A stretch of 32,774 nucleotides of DNA, from positions 1-32,774 of the IMG/VR virus record IMGVR_UViG_3300025120_000271. One strand, 5' to 3'. The position numbers and the translations under genes are program-made. Positions 5,434 through 24,985 of this stretch are shown here, one piece after another. This DNA comes from a virus. How positions within the stretch are numbered: the first letter of the stretch is position 1; each line of letters begins with the position of its first letter. The notes under the pieces are model-generated. The model did not search any database. It was given only the letters and a program-made list of their open reading frames with translations, and had not been told where the DNA came from.

Positions 5434-6234
5434 ATGAGTTCAGTACACCACGGTCCAGAAAATCTATCTGGACCATTATATGTAACTAGTGAAGGATCAA
5501 AACCGAGACCGATTGTAGATACTATTGGACAACCTATTACAGGTGCTGCCTATTTACAAGGTCCAGTTCAAATTGGGAAGGATGGAGATTTTCCTTCACG
5601 TTGGGCTACCTTGATGGTTGGTACACTTGAGAATAATCAATCCGAATCACCTATTATTCCTGGTGCTCTCTGTACTGGTCTGAATAATCCATATTCTTTG
5701 GGTGTCATTGGTGATGCTGCTATTCTAGATAACCTTGATGTATCAGTAAGCATTGCTGCTGGTAAAGATATTGTTGCTCAAGGTGAGGTGATGTCACGTT
5801 GCGGTGGACATATCTTATCTGCAAAGAAAAACTTTGATATTCCTCATCCAATGAGAGAGGGTTGGAGACTGCGCCACACCTGCCCTGAAGGTCCCTCAAA
5901 CGACGTTTACACACGCGGTAGAGTATCAGGGAAAAGAGAGATTGAATTGCCTTCATATTGGAAAGGACTTGTAGATGAGAACTCAATTACAGTTATCTTA
6001 ACTCCTATTGGATCTCATCAGGACGTAATTGTAAAGAGATGGGACGAGCAGAAAGTATATCTTCAGTCAAAAGGTAATATGCCAATTGATTGCTTCTATC
6101 AAATCTTTGCAGAAAGAAAAGATGGAGAAAAACTAATTGTTGAGTATCTTGGAGAAAGTCCAGCAGATTATCCTGGAAACAATGATGAGTATTCAGTTTC
6201 TGGTTACCACTATGATAAAAAGGAGAGTGAATAA
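5434..6234 (+). CDS. Fibre/baseplate-associated structural protein, paralogue A
   Basis: 266 residues. Residues about 125-250 form a recognisable phage structural module: SAKKNFDIPHP, GWRLRHTCPEGP, VYTRGRVSG, then LPSYWKGLVDENSITVILTPIG. The next gene has the same module in the same order (KKNLPFDMPHP, GWRLRHVCIEGP, VYCRGRVSG, LPxFW-like VPSFWEGLVN), so the two are tandem paralogues. The N-terminus is different, with a LQGPVQIGKDGDFPSRWATLMVG segment typical of cyanophage fibre anchors. It follows the needle-like gene by 8 bases and overlaps the next start by one base. The module is seen in many phage tail-fibre-like proteins, but its exact function is not known to me; a beta-sandwich attachment domain is a reasonable guess. 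Confidence 0.6.
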   Translation: MSSVHHGPENLSGPLYVTSEGSKPRPIVDTIGQPITGAAYLQGPVQIGKDGDFPSRWATLMVGTLENNQSESPIIPGALCTGLNNPYSLGVIGDAAILDNLDVSVSIAAGKDIVAQGEVMSRCGGHILSAKKNFDIPHPMREGWRLRHTCPEGPSNDVYTRGRVSGKREIELPSYWKGLVDENSITVILTPIGSHQDVIVKRWDEQKVYLQSKGNMPIDCFYQIFAERKDGEKLIVEYLGESPADYPGNNDEYSVSGYHYDKKESE

Positions 6235-6932
6235 TGCCTGAAAATTTTGAAGAAAGAAATATAGGTAATAAAAATTGCGACGAACCTGTTGTAGGAACCA
6301 AACATCCTAGCTTTGACTATATTCATAGAACAACTACAGGAGATGAAGATTATCCTGAAGATGCTTGTGGAAGATTTCTTCAAGCAAAAGTAAACTTTGA
6401 TGCCATTGAAGTTATCAATGGTGGTGACATGAATGCAGAGGGTGAGGTCACCTCGAATAATGGAGGACATACCCTTTCAAGTAAGAAGAATCTTCCATTT
6501 GATATGCCTCATCCTAATAAGAAAGGATGGAGATTGCGGCATGTTTGCATAGAAGGTCCAGAGATTGCTGTCTATTGTAGGGGAAGAGTATCGGGTGATG
6601 GTGTCATTAATGTTCCGTCATTCTGGGAAGGTCTTGTTAATATGAATGATATTACGATTAGTTTGACTCCTATGGGTTCATGGCAAGAACTGTTTGTAAA
6701 AGAAATTGTAGGAAATCAAATTATTGTAAGAAATAATGCAGGTGGACCCATCAACGCAGACTATTATATTGTTGGTCGTCGTTTGGATGACGATTTGATT
6801 GTAGAATATGAAGGTAAGACTCATGAGGACTATCCAGGTGGTAACGAGGGATACTCCTTTAACTTTGAGCATAATTACGTTAAAGGTCTTATCAAGAAAT
6901 TCGTCAAAGAAAACTTTGACACAGGGTCCTGA
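6234..6932 (+). CDS. Fibre/baseplate-associated structural protein, paralogue B
   Basis: 232 residues. It shares with the preceding gene an N-terminal GEVxSxxGGHxLSxKK segment and the module PHPNKKGWRLRHVCIEGP, GRVSG, SFWEGL, SLTPMGSWQELFVK, ending with a similar GGNEGYSF tail (PGNNDEYSV in the paralogue). The N-terminal 60 residues are unrelated to those of paralogue A, as if one common head-binding region had been swapped. The start overlaps the previous stop (ATAATG), indicating coupling. A sigma70-type promoter lies inside its last codons and extends into the gap, driving the next gene, so this gene closes the late structural operon. Probable virion structural protein; role inferred. Confidence 0.6.
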   Translation: MPENFEERNIGNKNCDEPVVGTKHPSFDYIHRTTTGDEDYPEDACGRFLQAKVNFDAIEVINGGDMNAEGEVTSNNGGHTLSSKKNLPFDMPHPNKKGWRLRHVCIEGPEIAVYCRGRVSGDGVINVPSFWEGLVNMNDITISLTPMGSWQELFVKEIVGNQIIVRNNAGGPINADYYIVGRRLDDDLIVEYEGKTHEDYPGGNEGYSFNFEHNYVKGLIKKFVKENFDTGS

Positions 6933-13955: not shown

Positions 13956-15500
13956 TTGGCAGTAAATAAGAATTTCGTTGTAAAAAACGGACTAGAGGTG
14001 AGTACTAACCTCATTCTTGCCGACGTTGATAGTTATAGAGTTGGTATTGGAACTTCTATAGCAGATTATACTTTACATGTTAATGGAGGAATTGGTGCTA
14101 CAGATTTATATGTAAGTGGAATTGCAACTTTCGCATCAATTGACGTTACGAATGATGTGATATTTGTAGATTTGGATTCTACGAATATCAATGTAACAGG
14201 TATTGGCACGATTGTTAACGCTGCGTTAACAAACATTACTGGTACTGCTGCTACAATAGGCAGCGTACAAATTGCTTCTGGCATTGTAACGGCAGCAAGT
14301 GGCATTGTTACTTACTATGGTGATGGTGGAAATCTAACTGGTATTGTCGCTGGTGTTGGCATTAGAACAGAAGGTTCAGTTGCCGGTTACGGAATTACTT
14401 TCCTTGACTTTAGGGGAGCAGGTGTTTCTACAATCACTGCTCCAGTTTCTGGTATCTCCACAATTAACATCACTGGTGGCGGTGGTGGTGGTTCTATTAG
14501 TATTAGTACAACTGCACCACCCAGTCCTAGCGGCGGTGACCTTTGGTATAGTCCAGACCGCGCTAGAACTTTCATCTATTATGATGAAAGTGAAGTTGGA
14601 TATGGAACATCAAAACAATGGATCGATGCTTCGCCATTCAATGTTGGAGTCTTATCGGCAACTTCAATATCTGTTGGTTCTCTTTCTCTTAGTAATAATC
14701 TTAATGTTTCTGGTATTACAACAGTTGGTTCTTTAGATTCTGGTAATATAAATTCTTCTGGTATTATTACTGCAACTTCTGTAACTGTTGGATCTGCTGT
14801 AACTGCTAATTCAACTGGTATTATAGTTGTTGGTGTTGTTACTGCAACTTCATTTGTTGGTTCTTTAAGTGGAACTGCAACTAATGCAACAAATATTACT
14901 CTTGCCGATGAAAGTTCTGATACCACTTGTTTTCCTCTATTTGCTACAGATGCAACGGGCAATCAAGCACCAAAGACCGATGCAAGTGCATTAACTTATA
15001 ATGCTGCTAATAGTACACTTTCAGCAACAACATTTAGTGGTAATGCAACCACAGCAACTACGGCAACTAATGCAACAAACATTACTCTTGCCGATGAAAG
15101 TTCTGATCCAACTTGCTTTCCTTTATTTGCTACAGATGCAACAGGAAACCAAGCACCAAAGACTGACTCTAGTTCTCTAATTTACAATGCTTCTACTGGT
15201 CAGTTGACTTCTGTAGATTTTAATGCAACTTCTGATATCAATTTAAAGAAAGATATTGAAGTTATCACCGATGCCACTGATTTAATTAAACAACTGAATG
15301 GTGTTAGATTTGCCTGGAAAGCAAATGATAGAAAGTCTCTTGGTGTCATCGCACAAGAAGTAGAAGAGTTATTTCCTGAACTTATTTCTGAAAGAACAGA
15401 CACAGGAACTAAATCTGTTAATTATAATGGTTTAGTTGGTGTTCTGATTGAAGCAGTTAAAGAATTATCTGAAAGGGTTGGAAGATTGGAGAAGGAATAA
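13956..15500 (+). CDS. Tail fibre with C-terminal S74 intramolecular chaperone domain
   Basis: 514 residues. I take the TTG at 13956 as start because the N-terminus then reads MAVNKNFVVKNGLEV, a common cyanophage fibre opening, and an AGGGGAG site precedes it. The shaft has beta repeats, including two copies, 62 residues apart, of a NITLADESSD...CFPLFATDATGNQAPKTD unit. The last 89 residues (from S426) are the Peptidase_S74 endosialidase-type chaperone: SDINLKKDI, where the Ser begins the released fragment and the Lys-Asp pair is catalytic in the family, then GVRFAWK, LGVIAQEVEELFPE and a C-terminal coiled coil. The known family trimerises a fibre and then cuts itself off, so the mature fibre would end at about residue 425. 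It is followed by a late box. Confidence 0.88.
   Translation: MAVNKNFVVKNGLEVSTNLILADVDSYRVGIGTSIADYTLHVNGGIGATDLYVSGIATFASIDVTNDVIFVDLDSTNINVTGIGTIVNAALTNITGTAATIGSVQIASGIVTAASGIVTYYGDGGNLTGIVAGVGIRTEGSVAGYGITFLDFRGAGVSTITAPVSGISTINITGGGGGGSISISTTAPPSPSGGDLWYSPDRARTFIYYDESEVGYGTSKQWIDASPFNVGVLSATSISVGSLSLSNNLNVSGITTVGSLDSGNINSSGIITATSVTVGSAVTANSTGIIVVGVVTATSFVGSLSGTATNATNITLADESSDTTCFPLFATDATGNQAPKTDASALTYNAANSTLSATTFSGNATTATTATNATNITLADESSDPTCFPLFATDATGNQAPKTDSSSLIYNASTGQLTSVDFNATSDINLKKDIEVITDATDLIKQLNGVRFAWKANDRKSLGVIAQEVEELFPELISERTDTGTKSVNYNGLVGVLIEAVKELSERVGRLEKE
14787..14849 (+). repeat. 63-base segment shared with the propeller fibre gene
   Basis: Bases 14787-14849 are identical, base for base, to 25463-25525 in the fibre gene at 25073. 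The copies are 10.7 kb apart and in different genes. The flanks diverge immediately. This looks like recombination or gene conversion between fibre shafts. Confidence 0.8.
14881..14980 (+). repeat. LADESSD fibre repeat, copy 1 (copy 2 at 15067-15166)
   Basis: A block beginning with the sense of N-ITLADESSD and ending with NQAPKTD is repeated 186 bases later (exactly 62 codons) with scattered silent and few amino-acid changes. The two copies lie within the S74 fibre gene, just before the chaperone domain, and are long enough for slippage or unequal recombination. Confidence 0.8.
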
Positions 15501-15501
15501 T

Positions 15502-15509
15502 TATAAATA
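15502..15509 (+). promoter_or_regulatory. Late promoter box (TATAAATA)
   Basis: A perfect TATAAATA 32 bases before the ATG at 15542 and just past the stop of the S74 fibre gene. Fits T4-type late transcription of the cysteine-rich group. Confidence 0.7.
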
Positions 15510-15541: not shown

Positions 15542-15748
15542 ATGGCCATTAAGATATCAGGAACTACTGTTATTAATGACAGTAGGGTCCTATCAATTGC
15601 TTCCGTTTCTAGTATCGCAAGTCAAGCACAAGCAGAGACTGCTACCAACAATGATCAAATTATGACCCCTCTCCGGGTTAAACAAACAATTGATGCCAAT
15701 TCATCAGGTATTGGTGAAGGGAAGGTATACTTTTTAGGAGCTAGATAA
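15542..15748 (+). CDS. Short tail-fibre N-terminus-like protein (68 residues)
   Basis: The protein reads MAIKISGTTVINDSRVLSI, a common opening of cyanophage fibre proteins (short strands for attachment), followed by the SQAQAETATNNDQIMTPLRVKQTID segment seen in phage fibre and collar proteins. It ends after a short acidic-glycine linker, without a shaft, so it is a free-standing fibre base or a truncated fibre whose distal part is encoded by the next genes. It lies directly behind a late box. The next ORF begins three bases after its stop. Role inferred. Confidence 0.65.
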   Translation: MAIKISGTTVINDSRVLSIASVSSIASQAQAETATNNDQIMTPLRVKQTIDANSSGIGEGKVYFLGAR

Positions 15749-15796: not shown

Positions 15797-17719
15797 ATGG
15801 CTAACGGAAGATTAGGATTTAAGTGTATTCCGGCATATGCATCTTGTGAGATTTATCAAAATAGTTCTGGTAGTCAAGCTTCAATTTCAATTGGTGCTCA
15901 AGGACTGAATGCTTCTGTAAATAATACAATCAGTGTTGCAGCAGGTACGACTGCATATTGTTTAGTATCCAGTCAAAACGAAGCAGTAGGTACTAACTGT
16001 TTCAAAGATGCTAGTGCAATTACCGCTGCTGGTACGGGACAAACCGATCCTCATGGCGTATGGATACAATCATCCACTGCAATTGGCGGAACGGTAACTA
16101 CAAGACCAACTAGTTTCATGAACGTTAATGGAACTAGAACTTCTATCGCAGGCACTGCACTTCTATCACCAGCTCCATATGGTGGTAGTGAACGTATTTT
16201 GCCCGGTGAGGGTATGTATGCCGATAGTGCTGAGATTACGAATGGTGCGCTCAGGATGGTTCATAAAGATGCATTCATGACATTTGATTGTCATGGGATT
16301 AGACCATTATTCATTGGTTCTAAAAACTTTTGCTGTTGCTGTGAATTTGCAGGAGCAATGTTTATAAATCCACAGTGCGATTGTGCTGGTGTTAATTTTG
16401 GTTATGGGGACTCAGGTGTTGCAACACCATGTCAGATTTATCATCAAAGTTTTTCATATTTCGGCACTCCCGCTGCTTGCACTGAGTGTAGTCTATATGC
16501 GATTAATAGTTATGCTCCACCTTTTTATATAAAAACTGCAGGTGAAGTGTGCATAGGAGCTGGTGCCGTCTGCCTGGTTTGCCGGTGCCTCAGTGCGGCA
16601 GGCATCGTCGAGAGTGGCACTTTGCAACCACCAGTTATCGGATTTTATGCAGGGTGCTGTGGATTAGAGGGGAGCGCCAATGGTATATACCTTTGTTCGC
16701 TCAGAGTATTGGCCGGAGGATGTTGCTGTGCTGTGAGTAGTTGCTTCTTTGGATTTCGAGATCCGTTATCCTGCTGCTGCCTTACTTCAAGACCGCAGCG
16801 TCTTTCAACTGCACTTAGTTTATGCGGAGATGGCACAATGGCGTGCAATCAACCTTGTTGTAATCTGGGTACATCAAATCTTATGTCTCCGTATGGAGTT
16901 TCAAGAGCAGCAACTTATGGTGAATCATTATTTGCAATGAAAACTTGTGGTGGAATTACGAAATACCTTAGTGCATATCCTGGTTGTCAATTTCATGAAA
17001 CGTTGAGCAAATGCTCCTGTGTAAATTGGGAAGTGTTAGATATTGCTGTTCCAGACATATCTGGATGTGAATATCCAATTAAGTACCTTGCATATAATCC
17101 CAAGGTCTCTGTTGAAAAAACTTACTTTATGGTAAGATCGGCGCAACAATCTAACTGTGGAATTTTTGAATATAAGTTTGCAGATTATATTGGTGAGGGC
17201 CTCTGCACCGGCACTTGCATTTGCCCTCAAGAAGGCCTCGCCAATCAAAATGCATTCTTTAAAAGGTCCACACTTACGGACAGTCCTTATATTGATAAAA
17301 TTGCAGACTTCCCATCAGCAATGACTGCAACTAAATATACAGCTCCATTGATGTGTGTTGGGTGTCTTTATAGAATGTCTCCAAAAGAGAATCCGTTCTG
17401 GTCAATTACAGTTTATAATCATGATACTACAGAATGGGATAGATTTACAACAGAAGATTTGATTAGTTGGAAATCTGTTGCACCAGACTTTGCATGGAGT
17501 GTTAGTAATACATTCAAATATGAAACCTTTGATAATTGTTTACGAACCAGTTGCAACAATTTTGGAACAGTAGTTCCAAAATGCGGATTATTTGACTTTG
17601 GGGTAAGTGCAAATAACTATGAAAGAACTGGTGTTGTAATTTCAGATGGTGAAAGTATTATTGTTAATAATGATACAACTGAAGGTCTCACCGCTCAAGT
17701 TTGGGGGTATGAAGGATGA
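15797..17719 (+). CDS. Cysteine-rich putative virion protein, large (46 Cys in 640)
   Basis: 640 residues with 46 cysteines by direct count, including runs CCCC, CCC and CC in GSKNFCCCCEF, AGGCCCAV and PLSCCCLT, and closely spaced CxC or CxxC pairs (PQCDCAG, CVGC, CKC-like KCSCVN). The N-terminus (MANGRLGFKCIPAYASCEIY) is like that of cyanophage fibre-associated proteins, and the first 120 residues are Ser/Thr/Gly-rich beta sequence. The C-terminal 90 residues (ESIIVNNDTTEGLTAQVWGYEG) look like a globular cap with few cysteines. The stop overlaps the next cysteine-rich gene (ATGA). The rest of the window's proteins have few cysteines, so this is a property of this pair. It could be disulfide cross-linked after release into oxic water, or bind metal. 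The function is unknown; virion location is inferred from position. Confidence 0.7.
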   Translation: MANGRLGFKCIPAYASCEIYQNSSGSQASISIGAQGLNASVNNTISVAAGTTAYCLVSSQNEAVGTNCFKDASAITAAGTGQTDPHGVWIQSSTAIGGTVTTRPTSFMNVNGTRTSIAGTALLSPAPYGGSERILPGEGMYADSAEITNGALRMVHKDAFMTFDCHGIRPLFIGSKNFCCCCEFAGAMFINPQCDCAGVNFGYGDSGVATPCQIYHQSFSYFGTPAACTECSLYAINSYAPPFYIKTAGEVCIGAGAVCLVCRCLSAAGIVESGTLQPPVIGFYAGCCGLEGSANGIYLCSLRVLAGGCCCAVSSCFFGFRDPLSCCCLTSRPQRLSTALSLCGDGTMACNQPCCNLGTSNLMSPYGVSRAATYGESLFAMKTCGGITKYLSAYPGCQFHETLSKCSCVNWEVLDIAVPDISGCEYPIKYLAYNPKVSVEKTYFMVRSAQQSNCGIFEYKFADYIGEGLCTGTCICPQEGLANQNAFFKRSTLTDSPYIDKIADFPSAMTATKYTAPLMCVGCLYRMSPKENPFWSITVYNHDTTEWDRFTTEDLISWKSVAPDFAWSVSNTFKYETFDNCLRTSCNNFGTVVPKCGLFDFGVSANNYERTGVVISDGESIIVNNDTTEGLTAQVWGYEG

Positions 17720-18444
17720 GTAGATTTACACGAACAGCAGGTTCTAGTGGTAGTGGTGGTGCCACTTATGGAGACAGTAATGTTTGCGGTGTCCTTTCAT
17801 CTTATACTGGAGCACTTTCTGCAGGTGATGGAACAAACATTTGTTGTATCAGAAGTGAGTGGGAGTTGATTTGTGAATGCAATTGTATAACTGAATGTTA
17901 TGGCACTTGTGTAGAATTTACGTTTCCAAGTACTGCAGATACTGATACTTGCAAATTTGGTGAGTATAAATTGGAAGTGAATGGTTTATATGGAAAGGAT
18001 ACTACTGCAGTTTGTCTGCACATGAAAATTGGAAGTGCTAATTGCTATTGCACTTGCTGTTCGGGGCATTATGCTTACGAAGGCGGTCCCTCTCCCACTT
18101 CTAGTGGATATAACCAAGCAATGTGTTTTCATTTGATCAGAGTGTCCGGGGGCGCGTGTTGGCAGGGTGGAAATTTTACAGGATGTTTTGCTAGGTTTCC
18201 TTTCATACCTACATGTAATCCAGGTGCAGGTTTTGGAGTATGTTTTTCAACTTGTACGTGGTCTGCCTGTCAAGATATACGCACTAATGGGTGGGAAAAT
18301 TGTAAATGCAGGACTTGTTGGGAAGAGTTTTGTAAGGTAGCATTGGCTTATTCCGGTAGTTGCCCTATGTGTCACTGCGGTTCATTTAGAATATATGGTA
18401 AGAGACTTCGCCCATCGGCATATAGTGGTTACACAATTGCCTAA
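17716..18444 (+). CDS. Cysteine-rich putative virion protein, small (28 Cys in 242)
   Basis: 242 residues with 28 cysteines (over 11%), in tight sets such as ICECNCITECYGTC, NCYCTCC, NCKCRTC and CPMCHC. The N-terminus is Gly/Ser-rich (SRFTRTAGSSGSGGATYG), like a flexible fibre anchor. Short beta strands separate the cysteine clusters (EYKLEVNGLYG, FRIYGKRL). The CxC and CxxC spacing is metallothionein- or knottin-like, but no known cysteine fold was recognised. It starts within the stop of the large cysteine-rich gene (ATGA), which implies joint production, and a tail-assembly-like gene follows 28 bases later. A disulfide-rich tip or metal-binding decoration are the two obvious options; neither is shown by the sequence. 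Confidence 0.7.
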   Translation: MSRFTRTAGSSGSGGATYGDSNVCGVLSSYTGALSAGDGTNICCIRSEWELICECNCITECYGTCVEFTFPSTADTDTCKFGEYKLEVNGLYGKDTTAVCLHMKIGSANCYCTCCSGHYAYEGGPSPTSSGYNQAMCFHLIRVSGGACWQGGNFTGCFARFPFIPTCNPGAGFGVCFSTCTWSACQDIRTNGWENCKCRTCWEEFCKVALAYSGSCPMCHCGSFRIYGKRLRPSAYSGYTIA

Positions 18445-18472: not shown

Positions 18473-18901
18473 ATGGCAACTTTTAATTTAGACGGTTCTA
18501 TTAGTAGAACTAGAGATGTACAAAATGAACTGGAAGTACAATCACTTGAATATGGTCATGATATTGAAAGATCTACAGTTGATCTTCGATACTATAGAGA
18601 TTCTCTCTTATCACAAACTGATTGGAGAGTTGTAGTAGCATCAGAAACTGATGTTGGTATTTCTACTGATTGGAAAACTTATAGGCAAGCACTTCGTGAT
18701 TTGCCTTCACATAATCGTGCTCCAAATAAGTTTATGATTGCAGATTGGCCATTATCTCCAGATGAATCACAATATTCAGAAGATGCAATTCGATATATCG
18801 CAGAAGTAAGAGATCCTGTTGGTCTCGGAACTACATCATGGGTTGGATTAACTACTACAGGTGATTACTATCTACAAGATATTCCAGAGTCTGAAGAATA
18901 A
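18473..18901 (+). CDS. Tail fibre assembly-like protein (copy 1)
   Basis: 142 residues. The middle holds RDSLLSQTDWRVVVASE...DWKTYRQALRDLPS, the pattern of the small tail-fibre assembly/chaperone family (RNxLLxxTDW, then WxxYRQALRxLP). A paralogue at 29479 has the same RNQLIQQSDW...WKTYRQALRDIP order. Both lie as the last gene of a fibre cluster. The C-terminal part (about 95-142) is unique here (YIAEVRDPVGLGTTSWVGL). In known phages such proteins help fold or attach fibres and their specificity follows the adjacent fibre, which suggests this one serves the cysteine-rich or S74 group. A rho-independent terminator follows. Confidence 0.65.
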   Translation: MATFNLDGSISRTRDVQNELEVQSLEYGHDIERSTVDLRYYRDSLLSQTDWRVVVASETDVGISTDWKTYRQALRDLPSHNRAPNKFMIADWPLSPDESQYSEDAIRYIAEVRDPVGLGTTSWVGLTTTGDYYLQDIPESEE

Positions 18902-18991: not shown

Positions 18992-19936
18992 ATGTTAAGA
19001 AGAAAAGTATTCGCCATTGACGGTGGAGCGGGACGTGCTATTGCCGCAATACCAGCACTAAAAAAATACGCAAGAAACCATCCAGACGATGATTGGGCAG
19101 TGATTGTCTTTGGTTGGGATAATTTGTTTTGGGGTATTCCTGAACTCCAAGATAGAGTTTACAGTTCTGATGTAAAAGGAATCTTCAAAAACTTGTTAAA
19201 AGATTCTGACATTATTACCCCAGAACCTTATAGAATCTGGGAATATTTCAATCAAAAGTGCTCTCTTGTAGAGGGTTTTGATAAACTTATCAACGAAACG
19301 GAAGATCATTCTGACCTTGGAGTTCCAGAGTTAGTTTTAAGTAAAGGAGAAGAAAAGAACGCTTCTAATGTTCTTACAGAAGTTAAAAATCAACAAAATA
19401 AAAATCTTACTATTGTAATCCAACCTTTTGGTAGGTCAGCAAGAATTGACAATGGAGATATTATTGATGACAGTACTAGATCTTTGGAACCCGGAGTCTA
19501 CTATAAACTTGTAAAAAAACTCTCTCAGAAGTATAATATTGTTTTCATGGGAGAAGGTGAATATGCACAGTTAATTTCTCAAGAGGATCAAATTAGTGCC
19601 AAACTACAGATGGATCTCCGTGGTTGGGCAACAATAATTGAAGGATGTGATTACTTCATTGGTTGTGATAGTGTTGGTCAACATATGGCACGGGCATTTG
19701 ATAAACCAGGAACAGTTATTCTTGGTTCAACTTATGCAGTAAACATCACATATCCAGATCATTTTCAAATTATTGAAAATGAAAACGTAAAGAAAGAATA
19801 CTCACCAATTCGCATTTGTGGTTTAGATTCACATCTAGCAGATCGTAAGAATGATAGATGTATGGAATTTAGTGATAAAGATGTTGATAACATCTATGAG
19901 GCAATCGTAAAAGATATTAAGGAGAAAGTAAAATGA
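18992..19936 (+). CDS. GT9-family glycosyltransferase (heptosyltransferase-like)
   Basis: 314 residues, near the family's usual size (about 320-350). The N-terminus GGAGRAIAAIPALKKYARNHP (11-31) matches the GGxGDxxxxxPxLxxxxxxxP nucleotide-sugar start of ADP-heptose LPS heptosyltransferases. The C-terminal half has the GT9 signature, YFIGCDSVGQHMARAFDKPG (221-240), where D226, S227 and H231 stand for the usual D-S/T-G-x-x-H, then VILGSTYAVNITYP. GT9 enzymes use ADP-heptose. It overlaps the carbamoyltransferase by four bases (ATGA), so the two are coupled, and it is preceded by a late-type box. Substrate specificity is inferred from the adjacent heptose pathway; related GT9 members can use other sugars. 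Confidence 0.8.
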   Translation: MLRRKVFAIDGGAGRAIAAIPALKKYARNHPDDDWAVIVFGWDNLFWGIPELQDRVYSSDVKGIFKNLLKDSDIITPEPYRIWEYFNQKCSLVEGFDKLINETEDHSDLGVPELVLSKGEEKNASNVLTEVKNQQNKNLTIVIQPFGRSARIDNGDIIDDSTRSLEPGVYYKLVKKLSQKYNIVFMGEGEYAQLISQEDQISAKLQMDLRGWATIIEGCDYFIGCDSVGQHMARAFDKPGTVILGSTYAVNITYPDHFQIIENENVKKEYSPIRICGLDSHLADRKNDRCMEFSDKDVDNIYEAIVKDIKEKVK

Positions 19937-21666
19937 CTTACAACGTATTAGCAATCAATCCTGGACATAATGGTTCTGCTGCCCTTGTATCTGGTGGTAA
20001 GTTAGAACTTTATATCGAAGAAGAAAGGATGACTCGTCAAAAATATGACGGTAATCCCTTTCGTGCAATGATGTATATTATGGATAATTATATCATTAAT
20101 GAACTTATTATTGCAGGAACTGGACAAGAAAATCATCGTCTTCCCTGGACTGGAGAAGATTCTTATGGTGCTTTAGTTAGAAAGTATTATCCTAACGTAA
20201 AAATCTCTAGAGTTGGATCAAAACACCATGACGGTCATGCGTATAGTGCGTTCTACAATTCTGGTTTTGAAACAGCAGCTGCGGTCATTGTTGATGGTAG
20301 CGGTAGTATCTTTAACTTTAGATTTTCTCATGATCCAAAAGATAGTATTGAGGCATTTGAAACTGAAACAATTTACAAGTGCTCTTATGATGAAATTAAA
20401 GCAGTTCATAAGATTGGAGCAAATAATGGCATTCCCCATATTGATGCACCAGACTCTCAAATTGATGGCACTGTAACTACCGTAAAAGCATACGAAGCAG
20501 TATCAGAATATCTTGGTTTTGGATTTATTGATGCAGGAAAAACTATGGGTCTTGCGCCTTATGGTAAAGAAGATCCAAATATTCCAAATCTCTTCTATAA
20601 AGATACTGGAAGAGGTGATAAAAATATTTTTATGCCTCATTATCCAGCAGGAGCACTTATTGATTCCGAACGAATTCCTTATCTGAAGAAAACTGAAGAT
20701 TCAAGAGATTGGCATCATAATCCTTCAAAAGTTACAGATGCTGCAAAAAATCTTGCATGGAAAGTTCAACAAGAAACGCAAGAAAGAGTTGGCGATTTAA
20801 TTGAGAAGGCAGTAGATATTACTGGCGAAGAGAATATTGTTATCTCTGGTGGTTATGGTCTAAACTGTGTTGCAAATTATTATTTCAAAGAAAGGTTCCC
20901 CGAACTTAATATCTTTGTTGACCCAGTAGCACATGATGGCGGAACTTCTATTGGTTGGGCAAAGCATAACTCATATCAGCATTGTAAAAATCAAAACCTT
21001 GATTTTGAAACTGATCCATTGACTACTCTTTATCTTGGACCAGACTATGAGTACACTGTAGAAGACTTGGAGTATTTCAAAGATATTGAAATCTCTGATA
21101 CAGATAATACTTCTATCGCTAAACTGATTAGTGAGAAGAATATTGTCGCAATGTTCCAAGGAAGATCAGAAGCAGGTCCTAGAGCATTAGGTAATCGTTC
21201 TATTCTTTATGACCCCACAGACATCAAGGGCAAAGACTTTGTTAATAGTGTGAAAGGTCGTGAATGGTTCCGTCCCTTTGCAGGAACTGTACTCAAAGAA
21301 CACGCTAGTGAGTGGTTTGACCTTCGTGGTATGGATGAAACTCCATATATGATGTATGCAGTAGAACTTCAAACAAAAGCGATTGGAGAACTTCCTGCTA
21401 TCACTCACGTTGATGGAACATGTAGAGTTCAGACAGTAACTGAAGAACAAAATAAAAACTATTATGATTTAATTAACGAGTTCTACAAATTATCTAATGT
21501 TCCTATATTGTTCAACACAAGTTTCAATCTTGGTGGTCACCCGCTAGTTGAAACTCTTCAAGACGCGATCAACACCTTGAGGAATAGTAAGATTGAATAT
21601 CTTTACTTCCCAGAAATGAATAAGTTAGTAACACTTAAGAATGTAGAAGAGACAACTGAAGAGTAA
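19933..21666 (+). CDS. NodU/CmcH-family carbamoyltransferase
   Basis: 577 residues, full length for the family. The motifs appear in order: INPGHNGSAAL near the N-terminus, EEERMTRQK, KHHDGHAYSAFYNSGF (the His pair for carbamoyl phosphate and metal), VDGSGS, GKTMGLAPYGK, ISGGYGLNCVANY, DPVAHDGGTSIGWA, then the C-terminal Sua5-like domain with GRSEAGPRALGNRSIL, RPFAGTVL and NTSFNLGGHPLVET. Family members carbamoylate O-sites of sugars with carbamoyl phosphate and ATP (NodU, CmcH, and a Pseudomonas enzyme that carbamoylates core heptose). It starts four bases inside the GT9 stop. The natural reading is carbamoylation of the heptose added by the neighbouring GT9. A bidirectional terminator follows the stop. 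Confidence 0.88.
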   Translation: MTYNVLAINPGHNGSAALVSGGKLELYIEEERMTRQKYDGNPFRAMMYIMDNYIINELIIAGTGQENHRLPWTGEDSYGALVRKYYPNVKISRVGSKHHDGHAYSAFYNSGFETAAAVIVDGSGSIFNFRFSHDPKDSIEAFETETIYKCSYDEIKAVHKIGANNGIPHIDAPDSQIDGTVTTVKAYEAVSEYLGFGFIDAGKTMGLAPYGKEDPNIPNLFYKDTGRGDKNIFMPHYPAGALIDSERIPYLKKTEDSRDWHHNPSKVTDAAKNLAWKVQQETQERVGDLIEKAVDITGEENIVISGGYGLNCVANYYFKERFPELNIFVDPVAHDGGTSIGWAKHNSYQHCKNQNLDFETDPLTTLYLGPDYEYTVEDLEYFKDIEISDTDNTSIAKLISEKNIVAMFQGRSEAGPRALGNRSILYDPTDIKGKDFVNSVKGREWFRPFAGTVLKEHASEWFDLRGMDETPYMMYAVELQTKAIGELPAITHVDGTCRVQTVTEEQNKNYYDLINEFYKLSNVPILFNTSFNLGGHPLVETLQDAINTLRNSKIEYLYFPEMNKLVTLKNVEETTEE

Positions 21667-21669
21667 TAA

Positions 21670-21695
21670 AAAAGGAGGGATAAAACCCTCCTTTT
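21670..21695. terminator. Bidirectional terminator between convergent genes
   Basis: Perfect 10-base-pair stem AAAAGGAGGG (21670-21679) with CCCTCCTTTT (21686-21695), loop ATAAAA. T runs are present on both strands, so it can stop the carbamoyltransferase transcript and the minus-strand phosphatase transcript, whose stop is at 21697-21699. Confidence 0.75.
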
Positions 21696-21696
21696 C

Positions 21697-22350
21697 TTAT
21701 AGTGAATTTGCAAAGTCTAACAGACTATCAAAGACTTGAACATCTTTATATTTGGTGTCAAATGCTTTGAGATATTTCTTTTCAGTATCTGCACCTCTTC
21801 CCGTTCTTACAAGAACTGGAGTTGATTTTGCTTTGATTGCCATTTTGATGTCTTCAATAGTATCACCAACGTAATATCCTTTTGAGAAATCAACTCCCAC
21901 TTCATTCTTTGCCTTATTCAACATACCAATGTTTGGTTTTGCATAAGGATCTTGAGACATATCAGATGTATTAAAATAAAATCCATCAATAGAGAAAATA
22001 CCTGCTTGTCCAAATTGTTGCATCATATATTGCATAACACCTTGCACATCTTGTTGAGTCAATAATCCTCTTTGAATGTTGGGTTGATCCGAAAACAATA
22101 TTACTCTATGACCGATAAGACGAAGTTTGCGGATTGCTTCTAATGAACCAGAAATAAACTGAACGTCTTCGCGTCTTTTGATTACATTTTTCCATTCATT
22201 AATCACACCATCCCTATCAATCCCAATTACAGATTTAGTAAATGTGGATGGCCAATCCTCGGACGAATATTGAGATTGTTGGTTCATAAAAGGAGAACCT
22301 TCTTGCTGCGGTTGTGTTGCAGACACTGTTTTAGTTTGATATCTTCCCAT
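21697..22350 (-). CDS. gmhB: D,D-heptose 1,7-bisphosphate phosphatase-like HAD protein
   Basis: HAD superfamily. I see IDRDGVINEW (catalytic DxD), then GSLEAIRKLRLIGHRVILFSDQPNIQRG, matching GmhB's LxxxGxxLxxxTNQxGIxRG, then KPNIGMLNKAKNEVGVDF and YYVGDTIEDIKMA (metal-binding VGDxxxD). The pattern fits D-glycero-D-manno-heptose 1,7-bisphosphate 7-phosphatase, the third step of ADP-heptose synthesis. The Cys/His zinc loop of typical GmhB (CPHHP, C-x-C) is missing. Three starts are possible: 22410 (237 residues), 22350 and 22287. I prefer 22350 because it leaves room for the divergent late boxes at 22388-22397; 22287 has an AGAAGG-like site. The N-terminal leader is not part of the fold. Confidence 0.75.
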   Translation of the reverse strand: MGRYQTKTVSATQPQQEGSPFMNQQSQYSSEDWPSTFTKSVIGIDRDGVINEWKNVIKRREDVQFISGSLEAIRKLRLIGHRVILFSDQPNIQRGLLTQQDVQGVMQYMMQQFGQAGIFSIDGFYFNTSDMSQDPYAKPNIGMLNKAKNEVGVDFSKGYYVGDTIEDIKMAIKAKSTPVLVRTGRGADTEKKYLKAFDTKYKDVQVFDSLLDFANSL

Positions 22351-22387
22351 TATTATGCTATTATTTCTATACCAATTGTAGATTATA

Positions 22388-22397
22388 TATTTAAATA
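22388..22397. promoter_or_regulatory. Candidate divergent late promoter element
   Basis: The ten bases TATTTAAATA read TTTAAATA on both strands (minus 22388-22395, plus 22390-22397), seven of eight matches to TATAAATA on each strand. The plus box lies 34 bases before the ATG at 22432 and the minus box 37 before the 22350 start of the phosphatase. It repeats the overlapping layout seen at 13913-13924. Confidence 0.45.
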
Positions 22398-22431
22398 AAT
22401 CAAGAGGCATTATGATTATACTTGGACTTTA

Positions 22432-22830
22432 ATGAAAATATCATTTGTCAATGGTTGTTTTGATGTTCTTCATCCAGGACACATTGAACTCCTAAAATAT
22501 GCTAAATCTCTTGGGGATTATCTTATTGTCGCCATAGATACAGATAAAAAAGTTGCAGAAATGAAAGGTCCAACACGACCTATTTTTTCACAATACGATA
22601 GAGAACTGATGCTTACGTCAATTCGTTATGTTGATGTCGTTCATATGTTTGATAGTAAACAAGAATTGGAAGAGTTGTTAGAATCCATCAGTCCAGATAT
22701 ACTGGTGGTAGGTTCTGACTGGAAAGGAAAAGAAGTAGTAGGTTCACAATATGCAAAATCAGTTCGGTTTTTCGATAGACTCGGAGACTACTCCACCACA
22801 AAAACAATTCAAGGTATTACTTATCGGTGA
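22432..22830 (+). CDS. D-beta-D-heptose 1-phosphate adenylyltransferase (HldE C-terminal domain as a separate protein)
   Basis: 132 residues, matching a stand-alone cytidylyltransferase-like domain of the RfaE2 type. The nucleotidyltransferase signature FVNGCFDVLHPGHIELLKYA contains the HxGH motif (14-17). KGPTRPIFSQYDRELML and then ILVVGSDWKGKEVVGS follow as in HldE, and the terminal STTKTI is the ISxTxxI-like end of the domain. It activates heptose 1-phosphate with ATP to ADP-heptose. In most bacteria it is fused behind the kinase as HldE; here it is separate and precedes the kinase. The kinase start lies 80 bases inside this gene in another frame. There is no clear ribosome site; a late-type box lies upstream. 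Confidence 0.85.
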   Translation: MKISFVNGCFDVLHPGHIELLKYAKSLGDYLIVAIDTDKKVAEMKGPTRPIFSQYDRELMLTSIRYVDVVHMFDSKQELEELLESISPDILVVGSDWKGKEVVGSQYAKSVRFFDRLGDYSTTKTIQGITYR

Positions 22831-23542
22831 TAGTTGTATCGACGAATATGTTTATGGAACTGTTAATCGATTAAATCCAGAAGCACCTGTTCCAGTTTTA
22901 GATTATATCAGAACAGAAACAAGAAAAGGTATGGCATGGAATGTTTATGCTAACCTACTTTCTTTCGGTATTGATATTACGATGATTACTAACGATGAGA
23001 ACATCGTAAAGACACGATATATTGATGAGAAGTCTAATCAGCAGATTTTAAGAGTTGATACTGAAAATAATATCAAACCCTTCGAAGGTAATATGCCTGA
23101 GGGCAATTTTGATGCACTTGTTATATCTGACTACAACAAAGGATTTATAACATCTAAACGACTATTTGAATTGGTTGAATGGTTTGCGGGCCCAATTTTT
23201 ATTGATAGTAAGAAAACAACTCTACCTGTAGATGATGCATATATCAAAATCAATGACTATGAGTATTCGCGATTAGAATATAAAGATCATCCAAACCTTA
23301 TTATTACAAGAGGTTCAAAGGGTGCAGAATATAAAGGTAAGTTATATCCAGGCGAAAAGGTAAGTGTATATGATGTTGTGGGTGCTGGGGACACTTTCCT
23401 TGCCGCACTTGCCTACGGATACCTAACTTATGATAGAATAGAAGATGCAATACCTTTAGCAAATAAATCTGCTGCAATAGCAGTATCACATACAGGAACT
23501 TATGTACTTACCGGAGAAGATGTAAATGCGATATGTAGTTGA
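22751..23542 (+). CDS. D-glycero-beta-D-manno-heptose 7-phosphate kinase (HldE N-terminal domain as a separate protein)
   Basis: 263 residues, PfkB (ribokinase) family of the RfaE1 type. It has GDSCIDEYVYGTVNRLNPEAPVPVL (like RISPEAPVPV), then a TRKGMAWNV variant of PGGAANV, QQILRVDTE, LVISDYNKGFI (the HldE SDYGKG), and the family's ATP anion-hole VVGAGDTFLAAL (D214 the base). It is a little short for RfaE1 (about 310). The start at 22751 is the only ATG, GTG or TTG before the conserved core, so the first 80 bases are really read in two frames with the adenylyltransferase. The C-terminus overlaps the next ORF by 17 bases. It phosphorylates heptose 7-phosphate at C1; product goes to the phosphatase and adenylyltransferase. 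Confidence 0.85.
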   Translation: MQNQFGFSIDSETTPPQKQFKVLLIGDSCIDEYVYGTVNRLNPEAPVPVLDYIRTETRKGMAWNVYANLLSFGIDITMITNDENIVKTRYIDEKSNQQILRVDTENNIKPFEGNMPEGNFDALVISDYNKGFITSKRLFELVEWFAGPIFIDSKKTTLPVDDAYIKINDYEYSRLEYKDHPNLIITRGSKGAEYKGKLYPGEKVSVYDVVGAGDTFLAALAYGYLTYDRIEDAIPLANKSAAIAVSHTGTYVLTGEDVNAICS

Positions 23543-23855
23543 TATTGATGGAACTATCTGCACTCCTGGTTCTACTGAAGAGATGCGATATGAACAGGCA
23601 ATGCCGATTCGGGATAGAATTGATAAAATAAATAAACTATATGACGAAGGTCATACCATCGTTTATCTTACTGCCAGAGGAATGGGTCGATACAATAATA
23701 TTATAGACTTGGCAGTCAAAGAATTCTATGAATTTACAGAGATACAACTGAGTTTGTGGGGATGTAAATATCATCAGTTATTTCTTGGAAAACCATCCGC
23801 AGATTATTACATTGACGACAAAGGGGTACACTCCGATGACTTCTTCACAACCTAG
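23526..23855 (+). CDS. Small HAD-family phosphatase-like protein
   Basis: 109 residues. RYVVDIDGTICTP is the catalytic DxDGT, HTIVYLTARGMGR supplies the second motif (T), and KPSADYYIDDKG the third (Lys then DD for metal). The length and order resemble small capsule-type HAD phosphatases and the 3'-phosphatase half of polynucleotide kinase. It starts 17 bases within the kinase gene and is followed by a cupin, so it belongs to the sugar cassette. It may dephosphorylate a heptose or other sugar phosphate, possibly a second step in parallel with the GmhB-like protein; the substrate is not visible. Confidence 0.7.
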   Translation: MRYVVDIDGTICTPGSTEEMRYEQAMPIRDRIDKINKLYDEGHTIVYLTARGMGRYNNIIDLAVKEFYEFTEIQLSLWGCKYHQLFLGKPSADYYIDDKGVHSDDFFTT

Positions 23856-24216
23856 AGCAGGAGAATCTATTAAGTATGTTCCAAAAGGATGGGGATACGA
23901 AAAATGGATTGTCAACTGCGAAAAGTATTGTGGTAAGCTACTTTATATTGTAAAAGATAAAAAGTGTTCTTGGCACTATCACATTAAAAAAGATGAAGTA
24001 TTCTACATTCAAAGTGGTAGGATACGAATTTGCTATGGATGGAATGATGACATTGAGTCATCTACCATAGCAACATTAGAACGTGGAGATAAGTTCCACG
24101 TTCCAGTTGGTATGAGACATCAGATGTACGCTTTAGAGGATACAGAACTATTTGAGTTCAGTACAGAACACTTTGATTCTGATAGTGTTCGTGTTATTCA
24201 AGGAGATACTCTTTGA
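23836..24216 (+). CDS. Cupin-domain sugar enzyme (isomerase/epimerase-like)
   Basis: Cupin motif 1 is complete: HYHIKKDEVFYIQSG (H-x-H-x4-E-x6-G). Motif 2 is GDKFHVPVGMRH (G-x5-P-x-G-x2-H), with Ala where many cupins have Asn. This metal-binding barrel is typical of mannose-6-phosphate isomerase type II tails, sugar isomerases and C3/C5 epimerases. I choose ATG 23836 (MTSSQPRAGES, 126 residues), preceded by AAGGGG; an upstream in-frame ATG at 23785 would add 17 residues and lengthen the overlap with the HAD gene from 20 to 71 bases. It ends 23 bases inside the minus-strand HldD gene. Role inferred from neighbours. Confidence 0.7.
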   Translation: MTSSQPRAGESIKYVPKGWGYEKWIVNCEKYCGKLLYIVKDKKCSWHYHIKKDEVFYIQSGRIRICYGWNDDIESSTIATLERGDKFHVPVGMRHQMYALEDTELFEFSTEHFDSDSVRVIQGDTL

Positions 24217-24985
24217 CAGTTTTGAATTTATAATCACCCCATTCTTTTTTAGCACAAGTATAAGTTTGATACTTACTTTTTAGGTGCTCAGGGAATGGGA
24301 TGTATTCAATTTCTCCAAAATAATGTTCTGCAACACACTCTGCAACATGTTGAAAACTCACTGGATTGCTGGTTCCAAGGTCATAAATGCCAGAACCTTT
24401 ATCATTATCAAGAACAATCTTGATAATATCTCCAACCCAAATAAAGTCTCGTAAAAATTTATCAGAACCTTCAAATAGTTCAAGTTTACCAGTTTCTTCA
24501 ACTTGTTTTGCAAACTTACTTACAGGACTTGCTTGGTTTCCTTTATGATCTTCAGGTGTTCCATAAACATTGAAGTATCTAAATCCTTGAATGAGAGGAA
24601 ATCTATCCATATTATCTTGAACCCAATAATCAATAGTCACTTTGGATAGTGCATAATAATTAAGTGGATTGATGATGCCTTGTTCGTTTCCATATACGGA
24701 AGCGGATGAGGCATATTTTACTGGAATATTATACTTTGCTGCTTTCTCAAATAACCATTGACTAAATTCAATATTGTTAGAGAATATTTTCTTTAGATTA
24801 GTTTCTACAGTTGACGATATTGCACCTTGATGAATGATAAGTTCTACTTCGTCCCATGATTTGAATGTTGATCTAAAATTTAAACAATTATTCTCTTCTA
24901 TTTTAATTACTGTTTTTCCTCTTTGCTCTAAATGAACTAAAAAGTTAGCGCCAATAAATCCCTTTGCACCAGTAAGAATAATCAT
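24194..24985 (-). CDS. hldD: ADP-L-glycero-D-manno-heptose 6-epimerase
   Basis: 263 residues, extended SDR fold. GAKGFIGANF is the NAD(P)-binding GxxGxxG start at the N-terminus; IIHQGAISSTVE matches HldD's IxHxGAxSSTTE; SSASVYG and Y111-ALSK-115 form the catalytic Ser/Tyr-x3-Lys; RYFNVYG...HKGNQAS and LELFEGSDKFLRDFIWVGDI closely follow HldD's RYFNVYGxxxxHKGxxAS and LFEGSxxFxRDFVYVGDV. This enzyme turns ADP-D-glycero- into ADP-L-glycero-beta-D-manno-heptose, the form used by heptosyltransferases. It is encoded on the minus strand and converges on the cupin with a 23-base overlap. It is shorter than bacterial HldD (about 310). Identity of the family is firm; the enzyme may be truncated at the C-terminus. 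Confidence 0.9.
   Translation of the reverse strand: MIILTGAKGFIGANFLVHLEQRGKTVIKIEENNCLNFRSTFKSWDEVELIIHQGAISSTVETNLKKIFSNNIEFSQWLFEKAAKYNIPVKYASSASVYGNEQGIINPLNYYALSKVTIDYWVQDNMDRFPLIQGFRYFNVYGTPEDHKGNQASPVSKFAKQVEETGKLELFEGSDKFLRDFIWVGDIIKIVLDNDKGSGIYDLGTSNPVSFQHVAECVAEHYFGEIEYIPFPEHLKSKYQTYTCAKKEWGDYKFKTVKEYLLE

Follow-up and report, generated by a model that had tools for sequence, protein, structure and literature searches.

Two adjacent genes of a marine viral contig, designated A and B, encode proteins in which cysteine is about tenfold more abundant than usual. The window, meaning the whole stretch of DNA analysed, is the full IMG/VR record IMGVR_UViG_3300025120_000271 (positions 1 to 32,774; 32,774 bases of viral DNA). 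The initial annotation had counted Cys as 46 of 640 and 28 of 242 residues, described the two genes as coupled by an ATGA overlap, and found no comparable protein in the window. The counts are right, the overlap is seen where A ends (17719) and B starts (17716), and other window proteins longer than 100 aa reach at most 1.8% Cys. Remaining likely genes of the window have 0 to 5% Cys, the upper value being 3 Cys in a 60-aa ORF. The two genes and the parts of A are as follows.

15797..17719, plus strand: protein A, 640 aa, 46 Cys (7.2%), proposed fibre-tip protein
15797..15946, plus strand: N-terminal beta-sandwich half of A (MAxGRLG...), residues 1-50, pLDDT about 70-86
16289..16861, plus strand: densest Cys core of A, residues 165-355, AlphaFold2 pLDDT about 25
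17444..17470, plus strand: SxDLxxW-type motif of A (FTTEDLISW), shared by almost all relatives, whether rich or poor in Cys
17588..17716, plus strand: C-terminal beta-sandwich half of A (YERTGVVISDGE...QVWGYEG), pLDDT about 64-85
17716..18444, plus strand: protein B, 242 aa, 28 Cys (11.6%), proposed second tip protein

Because both Cys codons are in use (TGT/TGC 24/22 in A and 19/9 in B), the Cys density is no repeat artefact. A chance origin is excluded by an 88%-identical relative that retains every Cys of A, with dN/dS below 1. Cysteines are spread unevenly along A, with a nearly normal content in the first 150 residues and the final 40; within the core, a CCCC run occupies residues 179-182 and CCC runs occupy 309-311 and 326-328. 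Neither protein matched any Pfam or PHROG family, including the Gly_rich_2 (PF21722) and phrog_4205 profiles, and PDB sequence searches with both returned nothing usable. Metallothioneins were considered and ruled out, given lengths of 242-640 aa, frequent Trp, Tyr and Phe, and no Pfam match.

The genomic setting is that of a tail module of the T4-like kind, with a baseplate hub, a large tail fibre and more fibres. Best matches to the hub are mostly from cyanomyoviruses (26-34% identity). Furthermore, the contig of one relative (L012) terminates in a psbA fragment (P0001; a sub-threshold Photo_RC match, with the sequence read by eye), in support of cyanobacteria as hosts of that lineage. We regard the window phage as a T4-like marine phage and very probably a cyanophage. 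Two scans of bacterial genome contigs found no relative, so a host link was not obtained from the bacterial side. Elsewhere in the window, adjoining genes at 5434-6234 and 6234-6932 both match PHROG 17490, so a gene for a baseplate-region protein has apparently been duplicated. The immediate neighbours of A and B are the following.

13956..15500, plus strand: tail fibre with a Peptidase_S74 chaperone domain
15502-15509: T4-late-type box TATAAATA, before the 68-aa gene starting at 15542
15542..15748, plus strand: 68-aa fibre-like protein, C-terminus GEGKVYFLGAR, candidate docking peptide
18473..18901, plus strand: tail fibre assembly chaperone (PF16778 Phage_tail_APC, phrog_4912)

A late box and a short fibre-like gene had been described as preceding the pair; both are present upstream, but the box precedes the 68-aa gene and not A directly. 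In most relatives the protein encoded just before A terminates in a short aromatic peptide that often includes a basic residue, and the C-terminus of the 68-aa protein resembles this end. Such a peptide may be a docking site.

A search for homologues, one of the checks proposed in the initial annotation, yielded about ten more marine viral contigs from IMG/VR with Cys-rich A loci. A single record in a collection of phages matched A, that of Marine virus AG-345-O18, which gives the Pacific Ocean as origin; plate AG-345 is listed under an extracellular sort gate (PMC6122165). Gene order in relatives runs tail fibre, A, B, tail-fibre assembly chaperone. A and B are thus encoded between fibre and fibre-assembly chaperone, as would be expected of fibre-tip adhesins, and the structural, fibre-cluster role first suggested for them is well supported by this synteny. 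Cys content across the relatives is bimodal, and the levels of A and B are coordinated. In the Cys-rich set, A has 4.9-12.2% Cys and B 6.0-13.5%; in the Cys-poor set, comprising podovirus-like contigs with the same gene order, the counterparts A' and B' have 0.4-1.1% and 0-1.0%. Because these podovirus-like relatives share the architecture at 0-1% Cys, Cys-richness is a separate trait. In them A' is followed by either a B homologue or a Gly_rich_2 protein, a modular replacement, and the N-terminus of B (MxR... and Gly/Ser-rich) resembles that of these Gly_rich_2 proteins. Five podovirus-like contigs (L031, L033, L034, L043 and L044) have a Cys-poor Gly_rich_2 protein after A' where B is expected, which suggests exchangeable tip modules. 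The Cys-richest pair is preceded by two ORFs (L012:91-2717) that contain 4.7% and 2.9% Cys and carry motifs such as GSIWTWG and SSPVQIGSDTNW, with the look of RCC1-type repeats. Among ten related records, possibly fragments, thioredoxin was not found and glutaredoxin occurred in two.

Structure prediction was informative for only part of A. Mean AlphaFold2 pLDDT was 46 for A and 38 for B; the Cys core of A was not folded, and its end halves reached about 64-86. Downstream of the Cys-rich A and chaperone of one relative (L008) lies a 109-aa protein (L008:4366-4695) that corresponds to just the two end halves of A. Since it matches the ends without the core, the core looks like an insertion between beta-sandwich halves. 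The SxDLxxW motif is read as a beta-propeller blade signature. A may resemble GH32/GH43-type beta-propellers, having a blade-like C-terminal part with this motif and weak profile and fold matches, but these matches are non-significant (E 0.05-0.2; best 0.13 by profile and 0.048 by Foldseek, from a poor model) and membership is not claimed. Apart from such non-significant propellers, fold searches with the model of A matched a single protein, from a phage and uncharacterised (A0A6J5NWH6, E 3e-13). We propose a layout for A of terminal beta-sandwich halves, a Cys-rich core and a blade-like C-terminal part. For sequence libraries the initial view that no fold matches stands, although relatives without the cysteines suggest a beta-sandwich and a blade-like domain.

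A and B evolve rapidly. In two close pairs their dN/dS values were 0.51-0.91, compared with 0.07-0.28 for the neighbouring glycosyltransferase-like and carbamoyltransferase genes. The S74 fibre and chaperone of the window pair gave 0.31, and the chaperone (APC) of the other pair (L003/L006) was also fast at 0.69. Divergence faster than that of neighbours (mostly 0.07-0.31) would likewise be expected of fibre-tip adhesins. Despite this divergence, Cys was kept at 46/46, 26/28, 68/73 and 31/31 positions in the close pairs while other residues were 72-87% identical (binomial P = 0.002, 0.03, 8e-6 and 2e-4, respectively). Cys was the best-retained residue (95.5%), followed by Pro (90%) and Gly and Trp (both 89%). 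Cys columns seemed at first to be well conserved family-wide, a view that a shuffled control overturned: in distant pairs (about 20-35% identity) Cys matching was 52%, against 52-53% for A and 54-65% for B after shuffling and realignment. It follows that composition is held family-wide and that positions are demonstrably kept at short range only. The initial annotation had treated unconserved cysteines in homologues as evidence against its reading; they are kept in close homologues, absent from the podovirus-like ones, and compositional only at distance.

Downstream of the chaperone, the window encodes a set of putative sugar-related enzymes.

18992..19936, plus strand: GT9/heptosyltransferase-like protein (phrog_8954), presence tracks the Cys-rich tip
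19933..21666, plus strand: NodU-like carbamoyltransferase (PF16861, PF02543)
21697..22410, minus strand: GmhB-like heptose bisphosphate phosphatase (heptose-specific matches below curated cut-off)
22432..22830, plus strand: HldE adenylyltransferase-like domain (rfaE_dom_II, below cut-off)
22751..23542, plus strand: HldE kinase-like domain (rfaE_dom_I, below cut-off)
24194..24985, minus strand: HldD-like ADP-heptose 6-epimerase (below cut-off)

The first of these had no Pfam match and a sub-threshold match to TIGR02201 (E 8e-5), and its relatives match PF01075 weakly; full GT9 membership was rejected because the PF01075 and TIGR02201 cut-offs were missed, hence our term GT9-like. By gene likeness, positions 18992-24985 hold a near-complete ADP-heptose pathway with HldE split into two genes, the heptose-specific matches being to NCBIfam models below curated cut-offs. 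P-SSM2 and S-CAM1 have a similar set downstream of the tip. Heptose is reported absent from marine Synechococcus LPS (PMC4515613), and thus from that of the likely type of host; a phage-encoded ADP-heptose pathway therefore needs another use. Plausibly, phage-made ADP-heptose would serve the phage's own proteins.

A tblastn search with the GT9-like gene matched cultured cyanophages. In P-SSM2, S-CAM1, S-CAM3, S-SSM6a and Sf-FS3, Cys-rich proteins (8-12% Cys, often glycine-rich) occupy the tip place; sequence similarity between these and A or B was not detected. P-SSM2 has two (PSSM2_304 and PSSM2_306, 36 Cys each, 10.1%), and three occur in each of S-CAM1 (8.4-11.6%), S-CAM3 (8.0-11.6%), S-SSM6a and Sf-FS3 (both 9.4-11.5%). 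Several match Gly_rich_2 or phrog_4205/35878, and single-particle genomes AG-345-P14 and AG-345-F15 have further Cys-rich proteins at the tip place. Within the first 250 of 252 kb of P-SSM2, no ORF of 130 aa or more besides PSSM2_304 and PSSM2_306 exceeds 5% Cys, against a mean of 1.08%. The GT9-like gene follows in every Cys-rich tip locus examined, accompanied in cyanophages by carbamoyltransferase and ADP-heptose genes. Conversely, phrog_8954 is absent from eleven marine phages (S-PM2, Syn9, S-SM2, P-TIM68, Syn33, S-SCSM1, P-RSM4, P-SSM4, P-HM1, P-SSP7 and HTVC008M), none of which encodes a credible Cys-rich protein, antisense mechanical ORFs set aside, in scans that covered 120 of 147 kb of HTVC008M and 180 of 181 kb of P-HM1. 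Minus-strand mechanical ORFs of 6-12% Cys in S-CAM1 and Syn33 were judged spurious from their strand and TTG/GTG-type starts. Gly_rich_2 proteins of the GT-negative phages Syn9, P-RSM4, Syn33 and HTVC008M have 0-1.8% Cys in clean frames; a truncated Syn9 neighbour has 3.4%. Likewise, phrog_8954 is absent from six contigs, themselves fragments, with a Cys-poor A'. For cultured genomes the association of Cys-rich tip and GT gene is 5/5 versus 0/11 (Fisher P = 0.0002 if phages are independent, an overstatement since the phages are related).

Aeromonas phage HJ05 may serve as an outgroup for this link. There, an enzyme 27% identical to that of the window begins 12 bases downstream of a 559-aa protein. 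Of the 23 Cys in this protein, 16 fall within its final 159 residues, and it matches Gly_rich_2 weakly (E 0.017). The HJ05 tip is moderately Cys-rich and the comparison is suggestive: the genome mean is 1.05% Cys, and one GTG-start ORF (193 aa, 5.2%) outranks the 559-aa protein. HJ05 is unrelated to the cyanomyoviruses, and its Cys-enriched protein and GT9-like gene (L091:4228-6843) lie shortly before the tail sheath gene.

Our preferred reading, to which we give an even chance, is that A and B are receptor-binding fibre-tip adhesins of a T4-like marine phage, held by dense disulfides and possibly glycosylated. A would cap the fibre through a small beta-sandwich built from its two ends, B would sit on A, and the Cys-rich core would present a variable surface for host contact. 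Many disulfides would form after release into oxic seawater and hold this fast-changing surface together, much as disulfides staple other proteins that diversify quickly. Such disulfide locking, first suggested in the initial annotation, fits the data. The GT9-like enzyme, phage-made ADP-heptose and carbamoyltransferase may decorate the same tips. Distant Cys columns at the shuffled level are, however, weaker than a fixed disulfide scaffold predicts, family Cys counts are odd as often as even, and L008 has A with no B seen.

Plain disulfides also fail to explain why unrelated proteins with this trait are associated with a glycosyltransferase-like gene, and glycosylation of Cys is therefore an alternative, albeit an unlikely one. 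Here the GT9-like enzyme would place heptose, then carbamoylated, on many tip thiols in the reducing cytoplasm, yielding a glycan-coated tip. The occurrence of unrelated Cys-rich tip families in all GT-positive loci examined and in none of the GT-negative cultured genomes scanned, the ordinary Cys content of Gly_rich_2 proteins in GT-negative phages and the arrangement in HJ05, a different myovirus, all fit such acceptors, as does a heptose pathway in need of a use. Kept composition with drifting positions likewise fits bulk modification. Against this, we know of no GT9 enzyme that acts on Cys, the enzyme might instead modify Ser/Thr residues, the surface of the host or some other molecule, and descent of one locus accounts for much of the association. 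Single Cys are also retained in close relatives beyond the need of bulk acceptors. The stronger proposal, that the locus glycosylates tip Cys with heptose and that unrelated adhesin folds turn Cys-rich on entering it, appears decidedly doubtful.

Metal binding, also raised in the initial annotation, is less favoured and in our estimation likewise unlikely; ions such as Zn or Fe, held by the cysteines, would fold or arm the tip. Metal-containing phage tips are known. One study deals with tail fibres that bind iron (PMC11705849). In A, CC, CxC and CxxC spacings exceed shuffled expectation (1.39-, 1.39- and 1.22-fold). On the other hand, His is scarce (about 1.5%) and aromatics are frequent, CCC and CCCC runs are atypical of zinc sites, and the open ocean has very little trace metal in its water. 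Free thiols that bond covalently with host surface thiols or disulfides, making adsorption irreversible, would suit the presumed host-contact location and high thiol density; seawater would oxidise them, they leave the glycosyltransferase-like gene unexplained and they have no direct support, making this very unlikely. Least probable of all, A and B would be intracellular Cys-rich non-virion proteins placed in the tail module by happenstance, against which stand their coupling to fibre and fibre-assembly chaperone in relatives and the Gly_rich_2 proteins in the same place.

Fibre-tip adhesins are a known kind of protein. In T2/S16-type phages, gp38 is a separate small adhesin at the long tail fibre end whose gene lies beside the fibre gene, an arrangement like that of A and B, which unlike gp38 are not glycine-rich; phage S16 had no match to phrog_4205 or PF21722. 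Closer are the Gly_rich_2 (PF21722), phrog_4205 and phrog_35878 proteins of cyanomyoviruses (P-SSM2, S-CAM1 and S-SSM6a), which share with A and B their place, inferred tip role, 8-12% Cys and downstream GT-like and heptose genes, but are glycine-rich, have no detected similarity to A or B and are annotated as hypothetical. We know of no description of them as Cys-rich, and none appeared in the literature searched. In Agrobacterium phage Milano, virion disulfides were mapped by cryo-EM and mass spectrometry, and Cys makes up 1.4% overall and 2.1% of structural proteins, versus 0.9% in T4 (PMC10811340). Milano is likewise Cys-enriched, with disulfides demonstrated in tail and receptor-binding parts, but at about 2% Cys its bonds join conserved sheath and baseplate subunits and not a Cys-packed tip; the A/B tips are several times richer, and the available part of that report mentions no linked glycosyltransferase (PMC10811340). 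What appears new is that the proposed adhesins are Cys-packed, in unrelated families, and track a GT-like gene, a combination not found in the literature searched, which covered few subscription journals.

Little is known about how marine T4-like cyanophages bind their receptors, in particular about the proteins involved. If our preferred reading is right, a Cys content several times that of Milano structural proteins would be a signature for tip proteins missed by sequence libraries, including the unexplained P-SSM2 genes. The association with a GT-like gene also makes the heptose and carbamoyltransferase genes of cyanophages testable as modifiers of the phages' own tips, and the pattern points to undescribed chemistry at the virus-host contact. 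If Cys is indeed heptosylated and the virus tip bears a glycan coat built on Cys, this would be new chemistry. Whether as dense disulfides or as modified Cys, the cysteines of A and B would represent a notable adaptation of the virus surface to the ocean.
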